Of a stretch of DNA of 64,000 nt, positions 3,287 to 57,787 are shown in pieces. The stretch is from a virus. The stretch covers positions 1-64,000 of IMG/VR virus record IMGVR_UViG_3300032236_001514. One strand, written 5' to 3'. The first letter of the stretch is position 1, and each line of letters begins with the position of its first letter. Both the position numbers and the translations under genes were made by a program. The notes under the pieces were generated by a model. The model was not told the DNA's origin. It searched no databases and saw only the letters and a list, made by a program, of their open reading frames with translations.

Positions 3287-4234
3287 ATGAAAGAAGAAAA
3301 ACTATATGTTGTTGTTCCGTATTTTAATCATACAAACGCATCAATTAATAGAACTAACCTTGAGTTATGTTTAAAAAATCTTTCTATATATAAAAATAAT
3401 AGAGTTATCCTAGTAGAAGGAGTTTGGAATAAAGAAGCAAAACTTCAAGACTTTTCAGATTCTGTTTATAAACATTTAAAGTTTGATCTACAATCCCCAA
3501 TATGGGTAAAGGAAAATTTAATCAATCTTGGTATCCAATCTCTTAATAATGATTGGGAATATGTTTGTTGGCTTGATAAGGATATTCATTTTCTTAATCC
3601 AAATTGGGATATTGATACTATTAATAAATTAAAAGAATACGACATTATACAGCCTTGGGATAGAGTATTGTATTTAAATAAAAATTACGAAATAGATAGA
3701 AATATAAAAAGTAATAATGAAAATAGTTCTATTTCAATGTTTAATAATTGTCCTGATCCAAACAAAGAAAAAGGATTTCTATCATACGGAAAAACAAAAG
3801 AATTGGGATATGTAAGTCGAGTAGGGCATCCCGGTCATACTTGGGCTACTAATAGAAAGTTTTATGAAAAAATAGGAGGTCTTTTTGATAGATGTATTGT
3901 GGGTGGAGGAGATAGTTTTCTTTTATGTACAATAGACAAAGAGTTTGATTTGCCTTTTTTAGGATTAAAAGAACGTTATAAAAGTTTTTATACAAAATAT
4001 ATTAATTCAGCAAGAGGTACAAAAGTTGGTTATACAAAGGGAACTATTGTACATTACTTTCACGGTGATATGGAAAATAGAAATTATTACAAACGATATA
4101 ATTTATTAGACAATACAATGGATATAGAAAATGATCTTACATATCATGATAATGGGACATTAAAGATTAATAATTCCGACCTAGAAAAAAATATATTAGA
4201 TTATTTCTATTCTAGAAAAGAACACGAAGTATGA
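3287..4234 (+). CDS. GT-A-fold glycosyltransferase (family 2 / galactosyltransferase-like)
   Basis: 315 residues. Early VVVPYFN strand, then CWLDKDIHFLNP around residue 95 supplying a DxD-like metal/sugar-nucleotide motif. The later block GHTWATNRKFYEKIGGLFD...VGGGDSF (about residues 185-210) is the acceptor-side signature of family-2 and galactosyltransferase-C-type enzymes. It should transfer a hexose from a nucleotide sugar; acceptor unknown. First gene of a three-gene operon with 4-nt ATGA overlaps. Position beside the fibre genes suggests modification of virion or host surface glycans (inference). Confidence 0.8.
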   Translation: MKEEKLYVVVPYFNHTNASINRTNLELCLKNLSIYKNNRVILVEGVWNKEAKLQDFSDSVYKHLKFDLQSPIWVKENLINLGIQSLNNDWEYVCWLDKDIHFLNPNWDIDTINKLKEYDIIQPWDRVLYLNKNYEIDRNIKSNNENSSISMFNNCPDPNKEKGFLSYGKTKELGYVSRVGHPGHTWATNRKFYEKIGGLFDRCIVGGGDSFLLCTIDKEFDLPFLGLKERYKSFYTKYINSARGTKVGYTKGTIVHYFHGDMENRNYYKRYNLLDNTMDIENDLTYHDNGTLKINNSDLEKNILDYFYSRKEHEV

Positions 4235-6726: not shown

Positions 6727-7166
6727 GGGGGTGATAGGATTCGACACATAGTTGGATACTACACTGCATGTCGTAGTTGGTCTGTTGGCTACGTTAAAAG
6801 CAGACTAAAAATAAACGCAAAAGCTATCGCTAATGCAGTTGAAGCAGTCAAGTCAGTTATGACAAATGTTGCAGAGTTCTTCTTCGCTGAAGAGCCTTGC
6901 CTCATGGCAGCATAAACACCAAGAGTCTATCCTACTAAAGCTCTCGGAAACGCAGTAGGTTGAGAAGAACTTGCGATTCTTGGAAAATAAGTGCAAGCGG
7001 TAGTATATGGTCGTTAATCACATATACAGGTAGGTCTCTAAACATAGATAGGTTGGCAACGCCTCGTTACCTATAGACAACGAAAGTACGAAGTTTGCTA
7101 AAACATGTAGATTGTGTATGTAGAAAAATATGTGGACTCGGCTATCGTATGCCGACACCTCCACCA
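6727..7166 (+). ncRNA. ssrA: tmRNA
   Basis: 440-nt transfer-messenger RNA. The 5' end GGGGGTGATAGGATTCGACA matches the conserved bacterial start. GGGGGTG pairs with CACCTCC at 7156-7162 and ACCA (7163-7166) ends the molecule. The resume codon fits GCA in ataaacGCAaaagct, which aligns with the E. coli tagtcGCAaac. The reading frame then runs to TAA at 6913-6915, giving a tag of 32 residues that starts AKAIANAVEA and ends EEPCLMAA, much longer than the usual 8-15. Its role would be ribosome rescue and tagging for proteolysis during infection. The T-loop (ATCGTAT-like) departs from TTCRANY. Confidence 0.93.
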
Positions 7167-13616: not shown

Positions 13617-14042
13617 ATGTCTGATTTAGAAGCAGCCGCAAAAGCACTGAGTACAGTGAGTATGGTAGATAAACTAACCACATTTGAAGATAAACATCGT
13701 CCGTTTATCAATCTTATCATCAGACCCATGTTTATGCTTATAATCTTTTTGGCTGTTGGTTACTATACAATGTGGATGGCTACTAACTATGTAAAATCAG
13801 ATAAATTTGCCTTATATACCGAAAAACAGATACAAGCAGATAGACAACAAGACGAAGTAGCAAAAAACAGATTTGAAATTACTCAAACAAAACTAGAAAC
13901 CATTATAAATCAACAAGTTGCATATACAGAACAGTTAAAGGCTTATAATCAATTAATGGCAAATTATCAAAAACAGATGGACACTATGAATGATAGAGTC
14001 ATGTATCTTGAAAGATATAACAGAGACAATAACAACAAATGA
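13617..14042 (+). CDS. Single-pass membrane protein with periplasmic coiled coil
   Basis: 141 residues. One transmembrane helix at about 36-55 (PMFMLIIFLAVGYYTMWMA) preceded by a charged cytoplasmic part and followed by a long Q/N-rich coiled coil. This is the shape of an Rz-like inner-membrane spanin or a virion-associated membrane protein. Near the lysozyme, but a u-spanin candidate already exists, so function is open. Stop overlaps the next ATG. Confidence 0.65.
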   Translation: MSDLEAAAKALSTVSMVDKLTTFEDKHRPFINLIIRPMFMLIIFLAVGYYTMWMATNYVKSDKFALYTEKQIQADRQQDEVAKNRFEITQTKLETIINQQVAYTEQLKAYNQLMANYQKQMDTMNDRVMYLERYNRDNNNK

Positions 14043-14833
14043 TCTCCTTCAAGCAATTCTTTTTAGAAAAACTTTCTGAAAGAGTTTATAATCTTTCTTC
14101 AGAGGAGCAACAAGAAGTCAAAAAGATGGCTGATCGTTATGAGCAAAAGTTTGATAAACAACTTTTTAAGAAATTGGTTGTATTAAAAAAGAAGCCTGAA
14201 GATTTTTACAAGAAGGAACTCAATAAAAAAGGAGTAATAAATGCAGGTATGCTTCCTCTTGGTTTGATAGCTTATTATGATGATAAGGATAAAGAAAATA
14301 AAGAAATCCCTGTATATGTAAGTTTTGAAAGAGATTCCAAAGATAGAGCATTATATCAAAGAGATGAAGACAATGATGGAAAAGCTTATTGGGAAGCTAT
14401 CATCCTTTATTTTTATAAAATGTCTTTTGATAGAGAAATAATAGAAGATATACTTGTTCATGAACTTATTCATGCAAAACAACATCATAAATATCCCGGT
14501 AAAAAGTATACAAAAGGAGGGAAATATTACTGGCTTGATCCTCTTGAAGTGGCTGCTTATACTTCAAATATAATCAAGGCATTGGATGATTTTCTCCAAA
14601 AATCTACACCAGAAGAAAAGCAAAAGATAATTGAACTACTTAAGAATTTTATCACAAAGGGAATAATAGACTTTGGTGGAGATACACCTTGGTTCTTAAA
14701 TGATAAAAAGCAATTCCTCCATGCTCTTTACGATAATAGAAACAATCCAAAAGAACCAAGATATAGAAGAGAATTTAAGAGATTCTATAAAAAAATATTC
14801 TCTATATACCAAGATTTAAAAAATAATCCTTGA
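14039..14833 (+). CDS. Zincin metallopeptidase-like protein with capsid-targeting-like N-terminus
   Basis: 264 residues. ILVHELIHAKQHHKYPG near residue 140 holds the HExxH zinc motif, followed by DPLEVAAYTSN, whose Glu could be the third ligand. The first residues MISFKQFFLEKLSERV match the MxFKQFFLE pattern seen on other proteins here and on T4 packaged internal proteins. The combination suggests a protease carried in the capsid and delivered to the host; that is inference. Overlaps the preceding gene by 4 nt. Confidence 0.72.
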   Translation: MISFKQFFLEKLSERVYNLSSEEQQEVKKMADRYEQKFDKQLFKKLVVLKKKPEDFYKKELNKKGVINAGMLPLGLIAYYDDKDKENKEIPVYVSFERDSKDRALYQRDEDNDGKAYWEAIILYFYKMSFDREIIEDILVHELIHAKQHHKYPGKKYTKGGKYYWLDPLEVAAYTSNIIKALDDFLQKSTPEEKQKIIELLKNFITKGIIDFGGDTPWFLNDKKQFLHALYDNRNNPKEPRYRREFKRFYKKIFSIYQDLKNNP

Positions 14834-15676: not shown

Positions 15677-15749
15677 GGCCCCATAGTGTAGTGGTTTCGC
15701 ACGGAAGATTTTCAATCTTTAAGGCTGGTTTCAAATACCAGTGGGGCTG
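15677..15749 (+). tRNA. tRNA-Glu(TTC)
   Basis: Acceptor GGCCCCA/TGGGGCT, anticodon stem GAAGA/TCTTT with loop TTTTCAA (TTC), T loop TTCAAAT-like. The 3' half overlaps the last 38 bases of the endonuclease gene on the opposite strand. Confidence 0.88.
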
Positions 15750-16608
15750 TTCTTTTAGTTCCGTTAAAATGACCAGAACATTTAACACAACAAAATACAT
15801 TTTTTGTTTTTAACTTTCTATCTTTTGAAAATGTATTTTTACAATTAGTACAAATATAATCATATTTTGGTTTATATTCATCATATAATGATGCAAAATT
15901 AGAAGTATTATATTTTTCTTTTACATAATCAAAAACATATTTTAAATCATTTTTTCTTAAAACTTTAACAATATAACCAAAACTTTCTGCTAATTTTGTT
16001 TTTTTATTAACGGATTCTTTTGATTCATATCCTTTTATTTCTATTATAGTTTTTTTATCGTCTAATAAAAAATCGGGATAATATTTTAAACCATTTTTTT
16101 CTAGGAATGTTGGAAATCTTTCAAATTTTATACCATGATCTAGATTATAAATAACCCAACATAACTCATAAGTTGATCCACAATATATACCTTTATAATA
16201 ACCGTGTTTACTTCTACCTGATCCGATTCTATAGCCACCTGATGTTTTTGGTATATTTTTATTTCTATGTTTTATGTAACAATGATTTGAACAAGTTTTT
16301 CTTTTTTTGGATATAAAAATATTATCACACTCTATACATTTTTTTTCTTTTGGTGGGAGCGGTGGTTTCACAGAACCCCAGTAACCATGAGTTTTTATTT
16401 TATTTAAAATAGAATTTTTTATTTTATTTTTCCATTCATTTGAATATATTCTTTTTTTGTTATTATGAATAGCACCGCATGATCTACTACAAAATTTTCT
16501 TAAATGTTCTTTTTTACTATGTTTAGAAATTTCAAAAATTCCATTACATGTTAAGCAGTTTTTTTCTATAAATTCTTGAGGTCTTTTAAAATTTGTGATA
16601 TTATTCAT
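15712..16608 (-). CDS. Zinc-finger plus PD-(D/E)XK homing-type endonuclease
   Basis: 298 residues. The N-terminal zinc finger (CLTC...KKEHLRKFCSRSCG, about 18-45) is followed by a second (CIEC...CSNHC, about 91-113). A nuclease core KYYPDFLLDDKKTIIEIKGY (about 177-196) holds the P-D-x-E-x-K triad, and a C-terminal zinc ribbon (CTNC...CCVKC) follows. ATG at 16606-16608 follows TGTAAGTATTGAT, the same leader as two other endonuclease genes here. Its 3' end runs into tRNA-Glu on the other strand, so it is inserted against the tRNA array. Expected to cut tRNA-flanking DNA of related phages. Confidence 0.82.
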   Translation of the reverse strand: MNNITNFKRPQEFIEKNCLTCNGIFEISKHSKKEHLRKFCSRSCGAIHNNKKRIYSNEWKNKIKNSILNKIKTHGYWGSVKPPLPPKEKKCIECDNIFISKKRKTCSNHCYIKHRNKNIPKTSGGYRIGSGRSKHGYYKGIYCGSTYELCWVIYNLDHGIKFERFPTFLEKNGLKYYPDFLLDDKKTIIEIKGYESKESVNKKTKLAESFGYIVKVLRKNDLKYVFDYVKEKYNTSNFASLYDEYKPKYDYICTNCKNTFSKDRKLKTKNVFCCVKCSGHFNGTKRTAPLVFETSLKD

Positions 16609-16636
16609 ATCAATACTTACAATTAATCAATGACAT

Positions 16637-16671
16637 ATCAAGAGTTCAAATCCTCTTGGCGATGCCATTTG
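16637..16671 (+). pseudogene. Relic of a tRNA 3' half
   Basis: CAAGAG-TTCAAATC-CTCTTG followed by GCGATGCCA looks like the T arm and acceptor 3' strand of a tRNA, but no matching 5' half (GGCATCG) lies upstream; the endonuclease gene is there instead. Probably a tRNA broken by the insertion. The interval to 16796 contains two small hairpins (AATCCT/AGGATT and GAAAAGT/ACTTTTC) and no gene that I can identify. Confidence 0.4.
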
Positions 16672-17300: not shown

Positions 17301-17328
17301 TTTACATTCAATGTTTTTTTGATAAGAT
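17301..17328 (+). promoter_or_regulatory. Promoter of the Ser-Ser-His-Cys tRNA cluster
   Basis: TTTACA, 16-bp spacer, TAAGAT, 11 nt before tRNA-Ser(ACT). The stretch ttgataagatatataaata recurs at 17875 before tRNA-Pro. Confidence 0.65.
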
Positions 17329-17339
17329 ATATAAATAAT

Positions 17340-17856: not shown

Positions 17857-17884
17857 TTGTAAAACCAACAAAATTTGATAAGAT
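17857..17884 (+). promoter_or_regulatory. Promoter of the Pro-Asn-Leu tRNA cluster
   Basis: TTGTAA, 16-bp spacer, TAAGAT, 10 nt before tRNA-Pro. Confidence 0.6.
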
Positions 17885-17894
17885 ATATAAATAA

Positions 17895-17988: not shown

Positions 17989-18246
17989 TGGTATGTAGCT
18001 CAATGGTAGAGCGTTCGGCTGTATTAAGTTGCAGCTTATGATAGTAATATCATAATGAGAATGCCGCTAAGTCGGTGAAAGCTGAAATGCTAACGCCGAG
18101 CTAGCAGATCGAAAGATCGGGCAAGTGTAGAGACTTTACACGGCACATCCTTATGGGATGAAGACAAAGTCCATTCCATTAGGAAATAAAACTAATGGGT
18201 AGATGTAACCGAATGGTTGTAGGTTCGAGTCCTACCATACCAGCCA
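17989..18246 (+). tRNA. tRNA-Asn(GTT) interrupted by a group I intron
   Basis: Exons 17989-18022 and 18206-18246. Joined, they give a standard 75-nt tRNA: acceptor TGGTATG/CATACCA, D arm AGCTCAATGGTAGAGC, anticodon stem TTCGG/CCGAA, loop CTGTTAA (GTT), T arm GTAGG-TTCGAGT-CCTAC, G73 and encoded CCA, all matching bacterial tRNA-Asn identity. The intron splits the anticodon between its second and third bases. Confidence 0.9.
18023..18205 (+). ncRNA. Small group I intron in tRNA-Asn (183 nt)
   Basis: The 5' exon ends in U and the intron ends in G, as group I splicing requires. The internal guide GCAGC (18031-18035) pairs with exon bases GCTGT to form P1 with the U-G wobble at the splice site. 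Internal blocks such as gaaatgctaacgccgagct and cgctaagtcggtgaaagc resemble the P4-P6/J region of tRNA-type (IC3) introns. No ORF inside. It would self-splice using guanosine. Confidence 0.87.
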
Positions 18247-18332: not shown

Positions 18333-18374
18333 CTTTCAAAATTGTTTTTTCTGAGTACGATTGTAAGTATTTAT

Positions 18375-19046
18375 ATGATTAAAATATGTCCCAAGTGTAA
18401 TAAAGAACATAAAAAAAGAGGAGTTTTTTGTGGTAGGAGTTGTGGAAATTTTAGAAAATGGACAGAAGAACAAAAAATACAAAAGTCAATTACAGCAAAA
18501 AATAGTGATAAGGTAAAGAATTCATTAATAAAAGCTAGGATCGCATCTTCTAACTCTAAAAAAAGAAGAAAAACAAAAAGAATATCTATGGATTGTATCT
18601 TTTGTTTAAAACCATTTCTAATAGTTCCTTATATGAAAAATAAAAGAAAATTTTGTAATGGTACTTGTAGAAATTTATTTAATAATAAAAATATAAAAGG
18701 ATCTAGAAGTAAAGCTGAAATATTATTAGAAAAAGAATTAAATAATAGATTTCCTGATTTAAAAATTAATTACAATGATAGAAAAAAATTAAATGGTTTA
18801 GAACTAGATGTGTATTTCCCTGAACTACAATTAGCTATAGAATGGAATGGAATTTTTCATTATAAAAGTACAAAAGGTTCTATTTTAGAAAAATACAAAA
18901 TTAAAGATGACATGAAAATTAAAAAATGTAAAGAACTAGGAATAGAACTTTTAGTAATAAAAGATTTGACATCTCATGATAAGTTTATTAGACTAAATAT
19001 AAGAAATGTAATAGATACGGTAGTGGCTCGACAAGAAAGGCAATAG
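18375..19046 (+). CDS. Zinc-finger plus Vsr-like (EDxHD) homing-type endonuclease
   Basis: 223 residues from the ATG at 18375, which follows TGTAAGTATTTAT; an upstream in-frame ATG lies inside tRNA-Leu and is not credible. Residues 3-24 form a zinc finger (CPKC...RGVFCGRSCG), with a second at about 75-97 (CIFC...FCNGTC). The nuclease core LELDVYFPELQLAIEWNGIFHY (about 138-160) matches the I/L-D...A-I-E-F/W-N-G-x-x-x-H motif of EDxHD homing enzymes. The last 30 bases of the gene lie inside tRNA-Trp, so the element abuts its probable target. Confidence 0.82.
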   Translation: MIKICPKCNKEHKKRGVFCGRSCGNFRKWTEEQKIQKSITAKNSDKVKNSLIKARIASSNSKKRRKTKRISMDCIFCLKPFLIVPYMKNKRKFCNGTCRNLFNNKNIKGSRSKAEILLEKELNNRFPDLKINYNDRKKLNGLELDVYFPELQLAIEWNGIFHYKSTKGSILEKYKIKDDMKIKKCKELGIELLVIKDLTSHDKFIRLNIRNVIDTVVARQERQ

Positions 19047-19092
19047 TCTCCAAAACTATCAAATGTAGGGGCAGTACCTACCTACCGTGCCA
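19017..19092 (+). tRNA. tRNA-Trp(CCA), divergent
   Basis: Acceptor ACGGTAG/CTACCGT, anticodon stem ATAGT/ACTAT with loop CTCCAAA (CCA), T stem GTAGG/CCTAC, G73 and encoded CCA as for bacterial tRNA-Trp. T loop is GGCAGTA and the D loop lacks GG, so the usual D-T loop contact is missing. Overlaps the end of the upstream endonuclease gene. Confidence 0.75.
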
Positions 19093-19339: not shown

Positions 19340-19527
19340 AAATAGTCGATGTAATGCTACCAAACGCCTGTCTCAAGTCAGGGGAGAACGGATACCGAAG
19401 CCGTTGGAACGCAGAGAGCATAGACTCGTCTGGTGTTACGATACCGAGGTACACGGTGAGCATTAGACGTTAAACAAACGAAATGAGGGATTGGGTATTA
19501 GTCATACTCAGTCCCTCATTTTTTTTA
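19340..19527 (+). ncRNA. Unassigned structured RNA 2 (about 185 nt)
   Basis: TAATGCT near 19351 pairs with AGCATTA near 19460, closing a multi-hairpin domain: CCTG...CAGG, AACGG...CCGTT, and ACCGAGGTACACGGT. It ends in a strong terminator. No coding frame. The pairing pattern does not match a family I recognise; a 6S-like length is noted but the single long hairpin of 6S is not present. Confidence 0.65.
19482..19527 (+). terminator. Intrinsic terminator of structured RNA 2
   Basis: AATGAGGGA...TCCCTCATT continues inward as TGGGTAT...ATACTCA, a near-perfect 17-bp stem followed by Ts. Confidence 0.92.
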
Positions 19528-19594: not shown

Positions 19595-19774
19595 GATGCG
19601 CTCAAAAAGGAGAGAATTGATTTCAAAACTTGGAATATGCCCACCAGAATTGGTAAAAGCATTTGCTCCTGTTCGTGCTCGTATTAAAAGGGCTGTTGAC
19701 AGTTGCTCTAAAACTGTTACACTAGAGCAAGCAATAGAACAAATAAAAAAATTCAATGAGACTAAAACAAATTG
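19595..19774 (+). CDS. Small basic protein upstream of purA (59 aa)
   Basis: MRSKRRELISKLGICPPELVKAFAP...: helical, basic N-terminus. It is the first frame after the promoter and overlaps the start of the adenylosuccinate synthetase gene by 19 nt in another frame, implying coupled translation. No family recognised. Confidence 0.65.
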
Positions 19775-20769
19775 AACATGTAGATATTATTGTGGGTCTT
19801 GCTTGGGGAGATGAAGGCAAGGGAAAAATCTCAAGCGCACTTGCAAAGAACTATGATATGGTATGTCGTTGGAATGGTGGACCTAATGCTGGTCATACTG
19901 TTTATATTGATGACAAGAAGTACAAGACTCATCTTATTCCATCTGGAGTATTTCATGGAAAGCCTTCTATCATTGGTCCTAACTGTGTAGTTAATATCAG
20001 TAAATTTTGGGAGGAGATGGAATATCTTAAAGAGAACGGATTTGATATTTCTTTAGTAAAGATCCATCCTCATGCTCATATGATTACCAAAGATCATATT
20101 AAGTTTGATTTGGATTATCTCAAGCCTAAATTAGGAACTACAGGTCAAGGTATTGCTCCTTGCTATGCAGCCAAGGCAAATCGTGTAGGAGTACAAATCA
20201 AAGATTCTTCCATAGATCCACAGTATCATTGGGATGGTCATCTTGAAGGAAAGATTCTCTGTGAAGGCGCACAAAGCATTTGGCTTGATGTGAACTATGG
20301 AGATTATCCTTATGTGACAAGTTCCGAGACCTTTCCTCATAATGCATGTTCTCTTGGATTCTCTCCTAAGAAGATTCGTAATATTATTGGTGTTGCAAAG
20401 ATTTATGATACCAAGAGTGGAGTAGATCCTTTGTTTCCTGAGAGTCTTTGGGAGAATGAAGAACTCAATAAGATTATCGAAGAAGGCAAAGAATTTGGAA
20501 CTACTACTGGTAGAAAGAGACTTGTGAATTATCTGAATATGCCAAAACTTTTACAGGCTATTAATCTCTCTGGAGTAAATAAACTTATCATCAATAAATG
20601 TGATGTCTTGGAAAAGTTAAATATTAATAAACTATGGATCAATCAGGTTCGCACCTACGGTTCCTTCGAAGAAGTAAAGGATGTAATAAGACTTTATATT
20701 TCTACAGGAAATGTTAATGGAATGAACGATTCTGATATTGTCTTTTCAGGAGATGTGACTAAAATATAA
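19756..20769 (+). CDS. purA: Adenylosuccinate synthetase, short archaeal/PurZ-like form
   Basis: 337 residues, nearly 100 shorter than bacterial PurA (about 430) and close to archaeal PurA and phage PurZ. P-loop WGDEGKGK keeps the catalytic Asp (D19); NAGHT keeps the catalytic His (H47). GTTGQG (127-132), EGAQ (170-173), YPYVTSS and TTTGRKR (249-255) are in order, and NKCD (280-283) is the GTP-base motif. Joins aspartate to IMP, or to dGMP if it is PurZ-type, with GTP. The retained Asp and NKxD fit PurA or a GTP-using PurZ0-like enzyme better than canonical PurZ. Confidence 0.88.
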   Translation: MRLKQIEHVDIIVGLAWGDEGKGKISSALAKNYDMVCRWNGGPNAGHTVYIDDKKYKTHLIPSGVFHGKPSIIGPNCVVNISKFWEEMEYLKENGFDISLVKIHPHAHMITKDHIKFDLDYLKPKLGTTGQGIAPCYAAKANRVGVQIKDSSIDPQYHWDGHLEGKILCEGAQSIWLDVNYGDYPYVTSSETFPHNACSLGFSPKKIRNIIGVAKIYDTKSGVDPLFPESLWENEELNKIIEEGKEFGTTTGRKRLVNYLNMPKLLQAINLSGVNKLIINKCDVLEKLNINKLWINQVRTYGSFEEVKDVIRLYISTGNVNGMNDSDIVFSGDVTKI

Positions 20770-23111: not shown

Positions 23112-23624
23112 TTTTTTAATTCTGTATCTCTTATTATAAGATGATCTTTTGGTGTTTTTAGTATTTCTACCACAAAAAGTTTCGGTCTGAGAGTGACAAT
23201 TAGGACAAAGCAATCTCAAATTTGATGGGAAATTATTATCAGAATTACCATCTATATGATCTACATGTAAAGAAATTTCTTTATCCTGCCAATTCGATAG
23301 TTTACAAATTTCACACTTATATCCTTTTTTTTCACTTAAGTACTTTCTTAAAGTTTCTGAATGACAACTTTCTCCGTTTTCTATTCTTTTTGTTGTATCG
23401 GTTTCGAATCTATATCTGCCACAACATTTATTACTGCAAAATTTTCCGTTTGATGATTTAACATGGTAAACAAACTCTTTTTTACATTGTAAACAAATAG
23501 ATTCTTTACCTGTTTTTTTCCTTTTAGGATATTTCGAACCATTTAATTTAGCTGCACAAGATCTATTGCAGAATTTTTTAGCATATTTGTTTGTTATTTC
23601 TTTATTACATGTTGCACATTTCAT
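23088..23624 (-). CDS. Zinc-finger plus HNH homing-type endonuclease
   Basis: 178 residues. N-terminal finger CATCNKEITNKYAKKFCNRSCAAKLNG (about 3-29) is clearly related to those of the endonucleases at 15712 and 18375; a second finger CLQC...FCSNKCCGRY follows. The nuclease is HNH: CEIC (about 104), LHVDHIDGNSDNN (about 117-129), LRLLCPNCHSQTETF. The leader TGTAAGTATTAAT before its ATG is almost the same as in the other two. Inserted just upstream of tRNA-Val/Arg. Confidence 0.9.
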   Translation of the reverse strand: MKCATCNKEITNKYAKKFCNRSCAAKLNGSKYPKRKKTGKESICLQCKKEFVYHVKSSNGKFCSNKCCGRYRFETDTTKRIENGESCHSETLRKYLSEKKGYKCEICKLSNWQDKEISLHVDHIDGNSDNNFPSNLRLLCPNCHSQTETFCGRNTKNTKRSSYNKRYRIKKLTNISSL

Positions 23625-23675
23625 ATTAATACTTACAATAGTCTGTGTACATATTCAAATAGTCTGGGTTTTGAT

Positions 23676-23703
23676 TTGACATTTGTATTATATATGTTAA
23701 TAT
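23676..23703 (+). promoter_or_regulatory. Promoter of tRNA-Val and tRNA-Arg
   Basis: TTGACA, 16-bp spacer, TAATAT, 17 nt before tRNA-Val. Same boxes as the tmRNA promoter. Confidence 0.8.
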
Positions 23704-23719
23704 ATAAATATATAAACAT

Positions 23720-54877: not shown

Positions 54878-57787
54878 ATGGCAAAGAAGAAAGAACAGGA
54901 AAGTAATTCTTTAGATGAGTTAACTATGGATGATATTTTGGTAGATGGAAAATTCTATCAAGGCAATGAGAATATCCTTCGTAAGGATGCTACATTTAAA
55001 TGGACAGAAGAGATGTTGGCAGAGCTTAAACTCTGTGCCAAGAGTATTCTTCATTTTGCAGAAAACCATTTCTATATTATTACCGAGGATGGTAAAAGAA
55101 AGATTGAACTATACAAATACCAAAAGAGACTTTTAAAGGCTTTTAAATCCAATAGATTCAATGTAATCCTATCTAGCCGTCAAAGTGGTAAGGCATTGGC
55201 TTTGAATACGCCCATACCAACACCTAATGGTTATGTTATGATGGGTGATCTTAAAGACGGAGATCAAATATTTGGATCAGATGGTAATATATATAACATA
55301 AAAAAAGCACACGAAATTCTTAATCATAGAGAATGTTATAAACTAACATTTGATAACGGGGAATCTATAGTTGCAGATGCTGAACACCTTTGGTTTACGC
55401 AGACAAAAAAAGATAGAAAAAGAAAATATAATAGAGAAGGTAGCGTAAAAACTACCAAAGAAATTTTTAATAGTTTATTTTATACTTCCAATAACGAGCC
55501 TAATCATAGAATACCTATGTGTTTGAATGGTATAGAGTTTGAAGAAAAAAATCTACCAATATCTCCATATATTCTTGGACTTTGGTTGGGGGACGGTGCA
55601 ACTGATGGCTCAAGAATAACTGTTGGTAAAAGAGATATAAAATATATTATTGATATTTTAGAAAAAAATCAAGAATTCAAAATTATAAAAGTTCAAGAAG
55701 ATAAAAATGGTGTTTTTGCTATAAATTTAACAAATGAAGAGAGAAAAAAAGATTCTTTACACACAAAATTAAGATTAAATGCTTTATTGGGAAATAAACA
55801 CATCCCAGAATTATATCTATTATCTTCTAGAGAGCAAAGATTAGAATTATTAAAAGGATTGATGGATTCTGATGGTTATATAACACCTAAAGGTCATGCA
55901 TATTTCTATAATACCAATTTAAAATTGGTCAAACAAGTTCAATCTCTTATAACTAGTTTAGGATATAAAGCCTTTTATAAAGAGAAAATAGCAAAAATAA
56001 ATGGAGTGGAGTGTGGTCTTGTTGGAAGTGTTTACTTTAAACCAAGAGAATTTGTTGTTAAATTACCATTTAAAGTAGATAGATTAAAAGATAATTTAAG
56101 CATTGTATCAGAATCAAATAGAAACCAATATCATTATATTAAAAATATAGAAAAAACAGAAAGTGTTCCTGTTAGGTGTATAACCGTTGATAGTCCAAAT
56201 TCTCTATATCTTTGTGGTAGAAACTTCATACCAACTCATAATACAACTACAATTACCATTTACGCTCTTTGGTTGGTGTGTTTCCAATCAGATAAGAGAA
56301 TTACTATTGTAGCCAACAAGGAATCAACAGCAAAGGAAATTTTTGCCAGAATCAAGATGGCATATGAACAGCTTCCGATTTACATGAAGCCAAATATTAA
56401 GTCTTGGAGAAAAGATGGCTTTGTTCTTGGTAATGATTCTGCAATAACAATCAGCACTACATCCTCATCTGGTCCTCGTGGTACTACCAGTAATCTTCTT
56501 ATTATTGACGAGATGGCTCACTGTCCAGATGATCTTATGAGAGAACTCTGGAAGTCTGCTATTCCTATTATTTCTTCAATGAAGAAATCACAGGTTGTAG
56601 TTATTAGTACTCCTAATGGTAAAAATAATAAATTCTATGATCTTTATGAAGATAGTAAGAAGGAAGGAAGTGAGTGGAATCTAGAAGTTGTTAACTATTG
56701 GGATGTACCGGGTCGTGATGAGGAGTGGGTAAAAAAGACAATGGCAATGATGGGATCAAAAGATGATTTTGATCAGGAGTATTGTAATGTTTTCCATGAT
56801 CCTAATAAAAGTGTGATTGATGAAGAGTATCTTACTAAATTAAAAGGTGAATGCCCAGAACCAGTTTTAGTATTGGAAGATGGTGCTTACAAGATATTTG
56901 AGCTTCCAAATCCAGATAGTTTTTATGTTATAGGTGTTGACGTTGGTGAAGGTATAGGAAGAACAAATACTGTTGCTCAAATTTTAGATGTTTCTAATCT
57001 ACAAAATATTAAACAAGTAGCTATATTTGCTTCTAATAATATAAATCCATTTCACTTTGGAACACGACTAATGGGTGTTCTTCAGGATTGGGGAAGACCT
57101 CCTATCTTGGTTGAAAATAATAACAACGGACAGCAAATTTTGGACGTTCTTTGCCAGACTCATAACTATGAGAATGTAGTATCATATCACTTTGAAGGTT
57201 TTAGTAAGCACTATAATAATACTCATAGATACGGTATACATAATCATACTAATACTAGATATAAAGGTATAACAAACTTTAGATATTGGGTCAATAGTTT
57301 AAAAGCTGTTAAGCTCAATGACATGGATACTATCTTAGAGATAAACAGTTTTGTTCGTCTTCCAAATTATACATATACAAAGAAAAATGAAAAGGATCTT
57401 GATGATCGTGTATTTGGTCTTATATGGGCATTATTCATTCTTGATCCTTCTTTGGTAGCTAGATACTTTACAATACAAGAATTGGACGATCAAGGTCGCC
57501 CAATGAAAATTTTTCCTCTTAGTGATAATAAGGATCTTATAAAGAATAGTCCATTACTAATAGGAGGTGGTGCTAGTATAGTAAAGAAACCTTCGGTTAA
57601 TACTCCTTATTCTCATGTAGGTGGAATGGATATGGCTACTGGATTTGACCTTTTCTCTGATGACAGAGCAAATTTACTAAGATGGATGTTAGAAACAGAG
57701 GAAGCTGATAGGATGTTACCTCCACAAATTGATGATAATTCGGATAAGTCTTCTATGGACACTTATCATCCAACTATAATATTTTAA
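54878..57787 (+). CDS. Terminase large subunit interrupted by an intein
   Basis: 969 residues encoded; removal of 350 intein residues leaves 619, close to T4 gp17 (610). N-extein 1-105 ends in the Walker A motif SRQSGK; C-extein resumes with TTT at 456. Walker B LLIIDEMAH is near 541-549, the coupling motif VISTPNGKNNKFYDLYE near 578, and the RNase-H-like nuclease carries FYVIGVDVGEG near 685, VEN near 745 and DDRVFGLIWAL near 842. It drives DNA into the prohead with ATP and cuts concatemers. Splicing between GK and T is required for ATPase activity. Confidence 0.96.
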   Translation: MAKKKEQESNSLDELTMDDILVDGKFYQGNENILRKDATFKWTEEMLAELKLCAKSILHFAENHFYIITEDGKRKIELYKYQKRLLKAFKSNRFNVILSSRQSGKALALNTPIPTPNGYVMMGDLKDGDQIFGSDGNIYNIKKAHEILNHRECYKLTFDNGESIVADAEHLWFTQTKKDRKRKYNREGSVKTTKEIFNSLFYTSNNEPNHRIPMCLNGIEFEEKNLPISPYILGLWLGDGATDGSRITVGKRDIKYIIDILEKNQEFKIIKVQEDKNGVFAINLTNEERKKDSLHTKLRLNALLGNKHIPELYLLSSREQRLELLKGLMDSDGYITPKGHAYFYNTNLKLVKQVQSLITSLGYKAFYKEKIAKINGVECGLVGSVYFKPREFVVKLPFKVDRLKDNLSIVSESNRNQYHYIKNIEKTESVPVRCITVDSPNSLYLCGRNFIPTHNTTTITIYALWLVCFQSDKRITIVANKESTAKEIFARIKMAYEQLPIYMKPNIKSWRKDGFVLGNDSAITISTTSSSGPRGTTSNLLIIDEMAHCPDDLMRELWKSAIPIISSMKKSQVVVISTPNGKNNKFYDLYEDSKKEGSEWNLEVVNYWDVPGRDEEWVKKTMAMMGSKDDFDQEYCNVFHDPNKSVIDEEYLTKLKGECPEPVLVLEDGAYKIFELPNPDSFYVIGVDVGEGIGRTNTVAQILDVSNLQNIKQVAIFASNNINPFHFGTRLMGVLQDWGRPPILVENNNNGQQILDVLCQTHNYENVVSYHFEGFSKHYNNTHRYGIHNHTNTRYKGITNFRYWVNSLKAVKLNDMDTILEINSFVRLPNYTYTKKNEKDLDDRVFGLIWALFILDPSLVARYFTIQELDDQGRPMKIFPLSDNKDLIKNSPLLIGGGASIVKKPSVNTPYSHVGGMDMATGFDLFSDDRANLLRWMLETEEADRMLPPQIDDNSDKSSMDTYHPTIIF
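55193..56242 (+). mobile_element. Class 3 intein with LAGLIDADG endonuclease
   Basis: 350 residues (terminase residues 106-455), inserted inside Walker A. It starts with Ala (ALALNTPIPTPNG), not Cys or Ser, and ends THN before +1 Thr. The three residues that define class 3 inteins are present: Trp in block B (AEHLW, intein W67), Cys in block F (VRCITVD, C329) and Thr in block G (PTHN, T348). The homing endonuclease has two dodecapeptide motifs, ILGLWLGDGA (127-136) and LLKGLMDSDGY (219-229). The class is inferred from sequence alone. Confidence 0.9.

Follow-up and report, generated by a model that had tools for sequence, protein, structure and literature searches.

A 183-nt group I intron splits the anticodon of a phage tRNA-Asn gene and has relatives in viral contigs and bacteria

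The window analysed here, a stretch of 64,000 nt, lies within a 65,264-base IMG/VR virus record and encodes a tail sheath, a terminase, a tail tube and a ribonucleotide reductase, together with a large tRNA cluster. When ARAGORN is run in its default mode, it calls nothing between the tRNA-Pro and tRNA-Leu genes of this cluster and misses a tRNA-Asn gene. With introns allowed, it reports a tRNA-Asn(gtt) at 17989-18246 (+) with an intron of 183 nt after the second anticodon base (Table 1). Once the insert is removed, a cloverleaf with a GUU anticodon is obtained, and the exons are complete: all stems are kept and the CCA is encoded. An empty-site homologue is available in another viral contig (L383, positions 1622-1696), whose uninterrupted tRNA-Asn aligns with the joined exons without an insert (61 of the 74 aligned positions are identical). 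A preliminary description of this DNA had proposed the same arrangement, tRNA-Asn(GTT) exons with a 183-nt insert between anticodon bases 2 and 3, and its coordinates were exact: ARAGORN with introns agrees with them and L383 aligns across the junction. It was also right about the bases at the borders, the 5' exon ending in U (U18022) and the intron in G (G18205), and about a guide GCAGC pairing with the exon sequence GCTGT, with a U-G at the junction (U18022 with G18031).

In the sampled genes of the window phage, for which the tRNA would be used, Asn codons make up 7.2% of the total and 81% of them are AAT. Upstream of other genes of the cluster, the sequence ATATATAAATA occurs just 5' of tRNA-Ser, tRNA-Pro and tRNA-Val (17327-17337, 17883-17893 and 23700-23710), and it has 4 matches in the window for 0.46 expected. 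These copies are possible tRNA promoters, in which case tRNA-Asn would be read from the copy that precedes tRNA-Pro.

Table 1. Features of the split tRNA-Asn locus, in window coordinates.
Feature	Position	Strand	Description	Basis
5' exon, tRNA-Asn(GUU)	17989..18022	+	ends at anticodon bases G34 U35	ARAGORN -i; empty-site homologue L383
P1	18017..18036	+	exon GGCTGT 18017-18022 with guide GCAGCT 18031-18036; U.G at 5' splice site	
Group I intron, 183 nt, without ORF	18023..18205	+	final base omega-G 18205	RF00028, covariation
P2 hairpin, GUAA loop	18037..18054	+	all 7 pairs changed on both sides	
P3	18062-18066 with 18141-18145	+	100% paired; 5/5 pairs compensatory	
P4	18072-18077/18094-18099	+	within P3 span 18062..18145	
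P5	18080-18082/18089-18091	+	within P3 span	
P6	18100-18101/18125-18126	+	within P3 span	
P6a	18104-18110/18115-18122	+	within P3 span	
P7	18132-18136 with 18167-18171 (18132..18171)	+	pseudoknotted with P3; invariant 8/8; expected guanosine-binding helix	
P8 hairpin and J8/7	18146..18166	+		alignment, pair test
P9.0 and P9 hairpin	18173..18204	+	weaker: 64-69% of cells paired	
3' exon, tRNA-Asn	18206..18246	+	begins with anticodon base U36; encoded CCA at end	ARAGORN -i
17-bp leader TTGTAAGTATTTATATG	18361..18377	+	ends at ATG of the 18375-19046 gene	
Free-standing homing-endonuclease-like gene, 223 aa	18375..19046	+	129 nt downstream of tRNA-Asn	

The insert matches the Rfam family RF00028 (Intron_gpI) with E = 2.5e-10 in a 451-base stretch and E = 8.6e-12 in the genome, at a score of 44.8 bits that is slightly lower than the curated gathering cut-off of 50 bits. 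Two related introns (L134 and L111) reach 89 and 65 bits with the same model. The preliminary description had proposed a covariance search and had named a score below threshold, jointly with failed splicing, as its refutation. The score does lie under the cut-off, but the E-value and the covariation overrule it. A model built from the window intron itself (R1) gives it 228.6 bits, and the folding energy of the insert lies at z = -6.0 relative to shuffles.

We wrote by hand a P1-P9 model that includes the P3/P7 pseudoknot and tested it on an alignment of 8 related introns. Changes on both sides were found in 25 of the 54 pairs, against 15.2 in shuffles, and none of 500 shuffles reached 25. In the same 8 sequences, 88% of the cells were paired, compared with 32-39% in slid controls. 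The window intron and the nearest one, L147, differ at 8 pairs in a compensatory way, at one pair on one side only, and at one pair that is broken. At the splice sites, the U.G of P1 and the next three pairs are invariant in all 8 sequences, and the terminal G is invariant across the 8 relatives. The both-sided changes, the covariation of P3 and the invariance of P7 indicate that the helices were kept by selection. A chance origin of the group I features is excluded by the RF00028 E-value, the fold z-score and a covariation above that of the 500 shuffles and of every slid control. We are therefore highly confident that the insert at 18023-18205 of this phage tRNA-Asn gene is a true group I intron, for which self-splicing is predicted, and the small group I intron of the preliminary description is borne out by the core, the family match and the covariation. 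More precisely, the insert is minimal and ORF-less, with a resemblance to subgroup IC3 that is tentative: all 8 sequences have a GNRA tetraloop as L2, and L9 is not such a tetraloop.

The chemistry of group I introns is established: a guanosine held in P7 attacks the 5' splice site, and the freed exon end then attacks after the terminal G. In the tRNA-Asn precursor, P1 would arise from pairing between the exon end GGCUGU and the internal guide GCAGCU. An external guanosine docked in P7 would attack after U35, which the U.G pair keeps in place within P1, and the released U35 would attack after the terminal G, so that U35 and U36 would be joined into a normal tRNA-Asn(GUU). Sequence features are present for each of these steps, from which we infer catalysis and splicing in infected cells. 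As the anticodon stays split until splicing, the unspliced precursor would lack an assembled GUU anticodon.

The intron is far from isolated. The core motif GTGTAGAGACTN{1,6}ACGG occurs in at least 120 stretches of viral contigs, many of which are read by ARAGORN as split tRNAs, mostly tRNA-Leu(UAA); other phage tRNAs in viral contigs (Leu, Lys and others) also bear introns. At the identical tRNA-Asn site, we found at least 20 further distinct introns in viral contigs, 18 of them from the core-motif scan and a second scan with a pattern of the tRNA-Asn 5' exon plus the guide, and 2 from a third scan. Contigs among these carriers encode terminase, major tail, minor tail, rIIA or RNA-ligase proteins. 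The same site is occupied in bacterial genomes by at least 7 introns, including those of an Elusimicrobia (L267), a Nitrospira (L293) and a Burkholderiaceae (L307); one in Magasanikbacteria (L298) was left out of this count because its insert exceeds 300 nt. Some isotypes given by ARAGORN at other loci (Tyr ata, SeC, Pyl and others) look like misplaced intron borders and were not taken as new isotypes. Some relatives are only 173-176 nt long according to ARAGORN. A blastn search with the window intron in 50,697 phage records gave nothing beyond short or weak pieces.

Two huge-phage genomes, of 735 kb and 595 kb, likewise contain introns in tRNA-Leu(UAA). In huge phage L406 (LR756511.1), the gene at 868-1654 carries a 700-nt intron enclosing an HNH-like ORF. 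The isolated Agrobacterium phage Atu_ph07 (L404, MF403008.1, 111390-114744) has an unannotated tRNA-Leu(UAA) at 1494-1855 with a 278-nt group I intron; the paper describing this phage gives 33 tRNAs, without any mention of introns. In L158, a single phage tRNA cluster contains two matches to group I introns (2217-2428 and 3505-3710). Outside tRNA genes, two unannotated small group I introns lie around annotated capsid genes of an uncultured Autographiviridae phage (L123, KT997847.1, 1443-1638 and 2152-2347).

Group I introns of subgroup IC3 are well known in bacterial tRNA genes, namely the cyanobacterial and plastid tRNA-Leu(UAA), the tRNA-Ile(CAU) of Azoarcus and the tRNA-Arg(CCU) of Agrobacterium. 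They consist of a small ORF-less ribozyme in the anticodon loop, with a guide that pairs with the anticodon arm, a U.G pair at the 5' site and a terminal G. The core motif of the window intron, GTGTAGAGACT...ACGG, is very like theirs. The window intron differs from them in residing in a phage gene, in interrupting a tRNA-Asn and in its length of 183 nt; it is inserted after the second anticodon base, whereas tRNA-Leu introns are inserted after the first, and it is not sister to the bacterial tRNA-Asn introns sampled. The tRNA-Leu(UAA) genes of Atu_ph07 (MF403008), LR756501 and LR756511 resemble the window in being phage tRNAs split by a group I intron, but here again the insertion follows the first anticodon base and the introns measure 278, 205 and 700 nt, the last with the HNH-like ORF. 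The introns of phage protein genes (DNA polymerase, terminase, capsid, ribonucleotide reductase) are likewise phage-borne, and GGCAAGWGTAGAGACTTTA is common to the polymerase-like and capsid-like ones; unlike the window intron, they lie in coding genes, and examples have HNH or LAGLIDADG genes inside or beside them.

These observations bear on a published generalisation. In their 2014 review, Hausner et al. stated that all phage introns observed to date were in protein-coding genes, despite the many phage tRNA genes, and proposed a reason for it (PMC3984707). The tRNA introns of many viral contigs and of the isolated phage Atu_ph07 go against this statement. No published report of a phage tRNA intron was found in the literature searched, outside of which lie most subscription journals and preprints. 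The preliminary description knew of no such intron in a phage tRNA-Asn, in line with PMC3984707. The case is not unique, as many viral contigs and bacterial chromosomes have tRNA-Asn introns. The wider result, and a more interesting one than the single tRNA-Asn case, is that group I introns regularly reside in phage tRNA genes. Since the default mode of ARAGORN missed the window tRNA-Asn, published phage tRNA counts may be incomplete. The set also adds very small natural ribozymes, of 183 nt in the window and 173-176 nt among its relatives, whose activity is predicted, and it identifies the tRNA-Asn anticodon as a repeatedly colonised site.

How did the intron reach this gene? Among the matches listed, the nearest introns (L147, L162 and L202, mutually identical) are 88% identical to the window intron, while the tRNA exons around them are 73% identical. 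The ribonucleotide reductase genes of the same phages show 70-74% nucleotide identity. Beyond the tRNA there is no homology in the flanks, and the tRNA with its intron is the sole similar part at the locus. The higher identity of the intron than of the exons, between flanks without homology, implies a movement of the intron between phages, and lateral transfer among them is most likely. The tRNA introns have the motif GGCAAGWGTAGAGACTTTA in common with introns of phage genes that, to judge from their translations, are DNA-polymerase-like (L384, L399) or capsid-like (L389, L390, L394, L402); these protein-gene introns carry HNH or LAGLIDADG genes. The intron would then belong to a lineage carried by phages, whose members move laterally and insert in tRNA genes as well as in phage DNA-polymerase and capsid genes. 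We searched the viral contigs for the 5' exon of the window's tRNA and for a relative of the nearby gene 14039-14833 and obtained none in either case; hence, an intronless allele from the same species is absent from the comparison. A sister contig with 98% identity covers most of 19269-62599 and begins at about 19269, just past the locus.

The mobility of the intron may involve the adjacent gene. There is no ORF inside the 183-nt intron, and the product of 18375-19046 matches PHROG_559 (E 3.6e-17) and PHROG_3339, annotated as homing endonuclease (E 6.3e-14). Homologues of this protein are encoded beside an intron-bearing tRNA-Asn in L225 (41% amino acid identity) and beside the intronless tRNA-Asn of L383 (59%). 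The tRNA region has three endonuclease-like genes, and each of them has the leader TTGTAAGTATTNATATG ending at its start codon, at 16606-16622 (-), 18361-18377 (+) and 23622-23638 (-); this 17-bp pattern has 3 matches where 0.01 are expected by chance. The arrangement suggests a candidate role for the 18375-19046 gene in mobilising the window intron in trans.

Such a role would amount to collaborative homing, where the adjacent endonuclease cuts the intronless tRNA-Asn and the intron-bearing phage then serves as the repair template, so that intron and endonuclease are copied together. Such homing would add to the explanation of a laterally moving intron and is not opposed to it. Arrangements of an intron with a neighbouring endonuclease, and collaborative homing itself, are known for other phage introns (PMC10448857), and SegB of phage T4 is a free-standing endonuclease among tRNA genes (PMC2988022, PMC10448857). 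The putative endonuclease of the window, also free-standing beside a presumed tRNA target, belongs to another family than SegB, and in the window the neighbouring tRNA has an intron. In most viral loci, a homing-endonuclease-like ORF is found no more than about 300 nt away from the intron-bearing tRNA-Asn, and relatives of the window's endonuclease adjoin tRNA-Asn in both L225 and L383. Intron-bearing tRNAs are nearer to such an ORF than their neighbours are (p = 0.005 for 12 deduplicated Asn loci, p = 0.002 for 20 loci of all isotypes), with p-values that are favoured because the list of endonucleases was built from seeds and motifs chosen near these introns. Against this, phage tRNA clusters are rich in endonucleases anyway, and the endonucleases beside introns fall in several families. 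Moreover, the endonuclease of L383 adjoins a tRNA-Asn that is intact, which means that resistance there does not require the intron. On balance, we regard collaborative homing at this locus as possible but somewhat doubtful. It is with similar reserve that we propose that phage tRNA genes hold a large overlooked pool of mobile group I introns, many of them ORF-less and spread in trans by adjoining endonucleases, of which the window's intron and 18375-19046 would be one pair. With an ORF-less intron adjoining a free-standing endonuclease, the locus offers a testable case.

An origin of the intron from the host's own tRNA-Asn appears quite unlikely. It would agree with the bacterial chromosomes that have group I introns at the same site (L267, L293, L307) and with the tree, where the Burkholderiaceae intron L307 groups with the phage intron L160; this grouping makes exchange with hosts possible, and introns may have been exchanged in this way. 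The tree is based on 104 core columns, mostly paired, and branch supports near the window are 40-64. A clade uniting the window's group with the bacterial tRNA-Asn introns was rejected (AU p = 0.001), as was a single origin of all tRNA-Asn introns (AU p = 3e-7), both p-values being optimistic because paired columns depend on each other and the program's own warning was that replicates were too few. Two further points oppose a host origin: the nearest introns among the matches listed are viral, and the core motif is common to phage protein-gene introns. The preliminary description had left the choice between a jump from a host tRNA and a phage-adapted intron; the second fits better, given its viral nearest relatives and the core motif in polymerase and capsid genes, and the host jump fits less well.

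It is very improbable that the intron has decayed, no longer splices and sits in a tRNA gene that is dead. The RF00028 score slightly below the cut-off and the variation of P9 among relatives could be read that way, but the helices are preserved by compensatory changes, P7 is invariant, and the tRNA exons retain all stems and the encoded CCA. Finally, it is extremely unlikely that a misassembly or a piece of bacterial DNA has been taken for a phage: the contig's source is metagenomic, without a cultured isolate, but it has genes for tail sheath, terminase, tail tube and ribonucleotide reductase, most of 19269-62599 recurs in the 98% identical sister contig, the 88% identical intron is found on three other contigs, and an isolated phage, Atu_ph07, has an intron-bearing tRNA-Leu.

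Several other elements of the window deserve mention. ARAGORN also misses a tRNA-Trp(CCA) at 19017-19092, whose T loop is non-standard and which overlaps the last part of the endonuclease gene 18375-19046; in L383, a similar tRNA-Trp sits between the tRNA-Asn and the endonuclease. At 16627-16668, beside the endonuclease-like gene 15712-16608 (-), lies an apparent orphan 3' half of a tRNA, perhaps from a tRNA broken by insertion. A phage tmRNA at 6727-7166 (95 bits with Rfam) is not called by the tRNA finder; on visual inspection its apparent tag is AKAIANAVEAVKSVMTNVAEFFFAEEPCLMAA, an unusually long one. A stretch of about 120 nt at 19347-19470 is closed by a TAATGCT/AGCATTA stem and has a weak twister-P1 match (22 bits, below the cut-off); with z -1.4, its fold does not clearly surpass that of shuffles. 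The large terminase subunit (54878-57787) has a LAGLIDADG-bearing interruption that is probably an intein. The gene at 19756-20769 encodes a 337-aa homologue of adenylosuccinate synthetase (E 2e-80), perhaps of the PurZ type that serves to make modified phage DNA.
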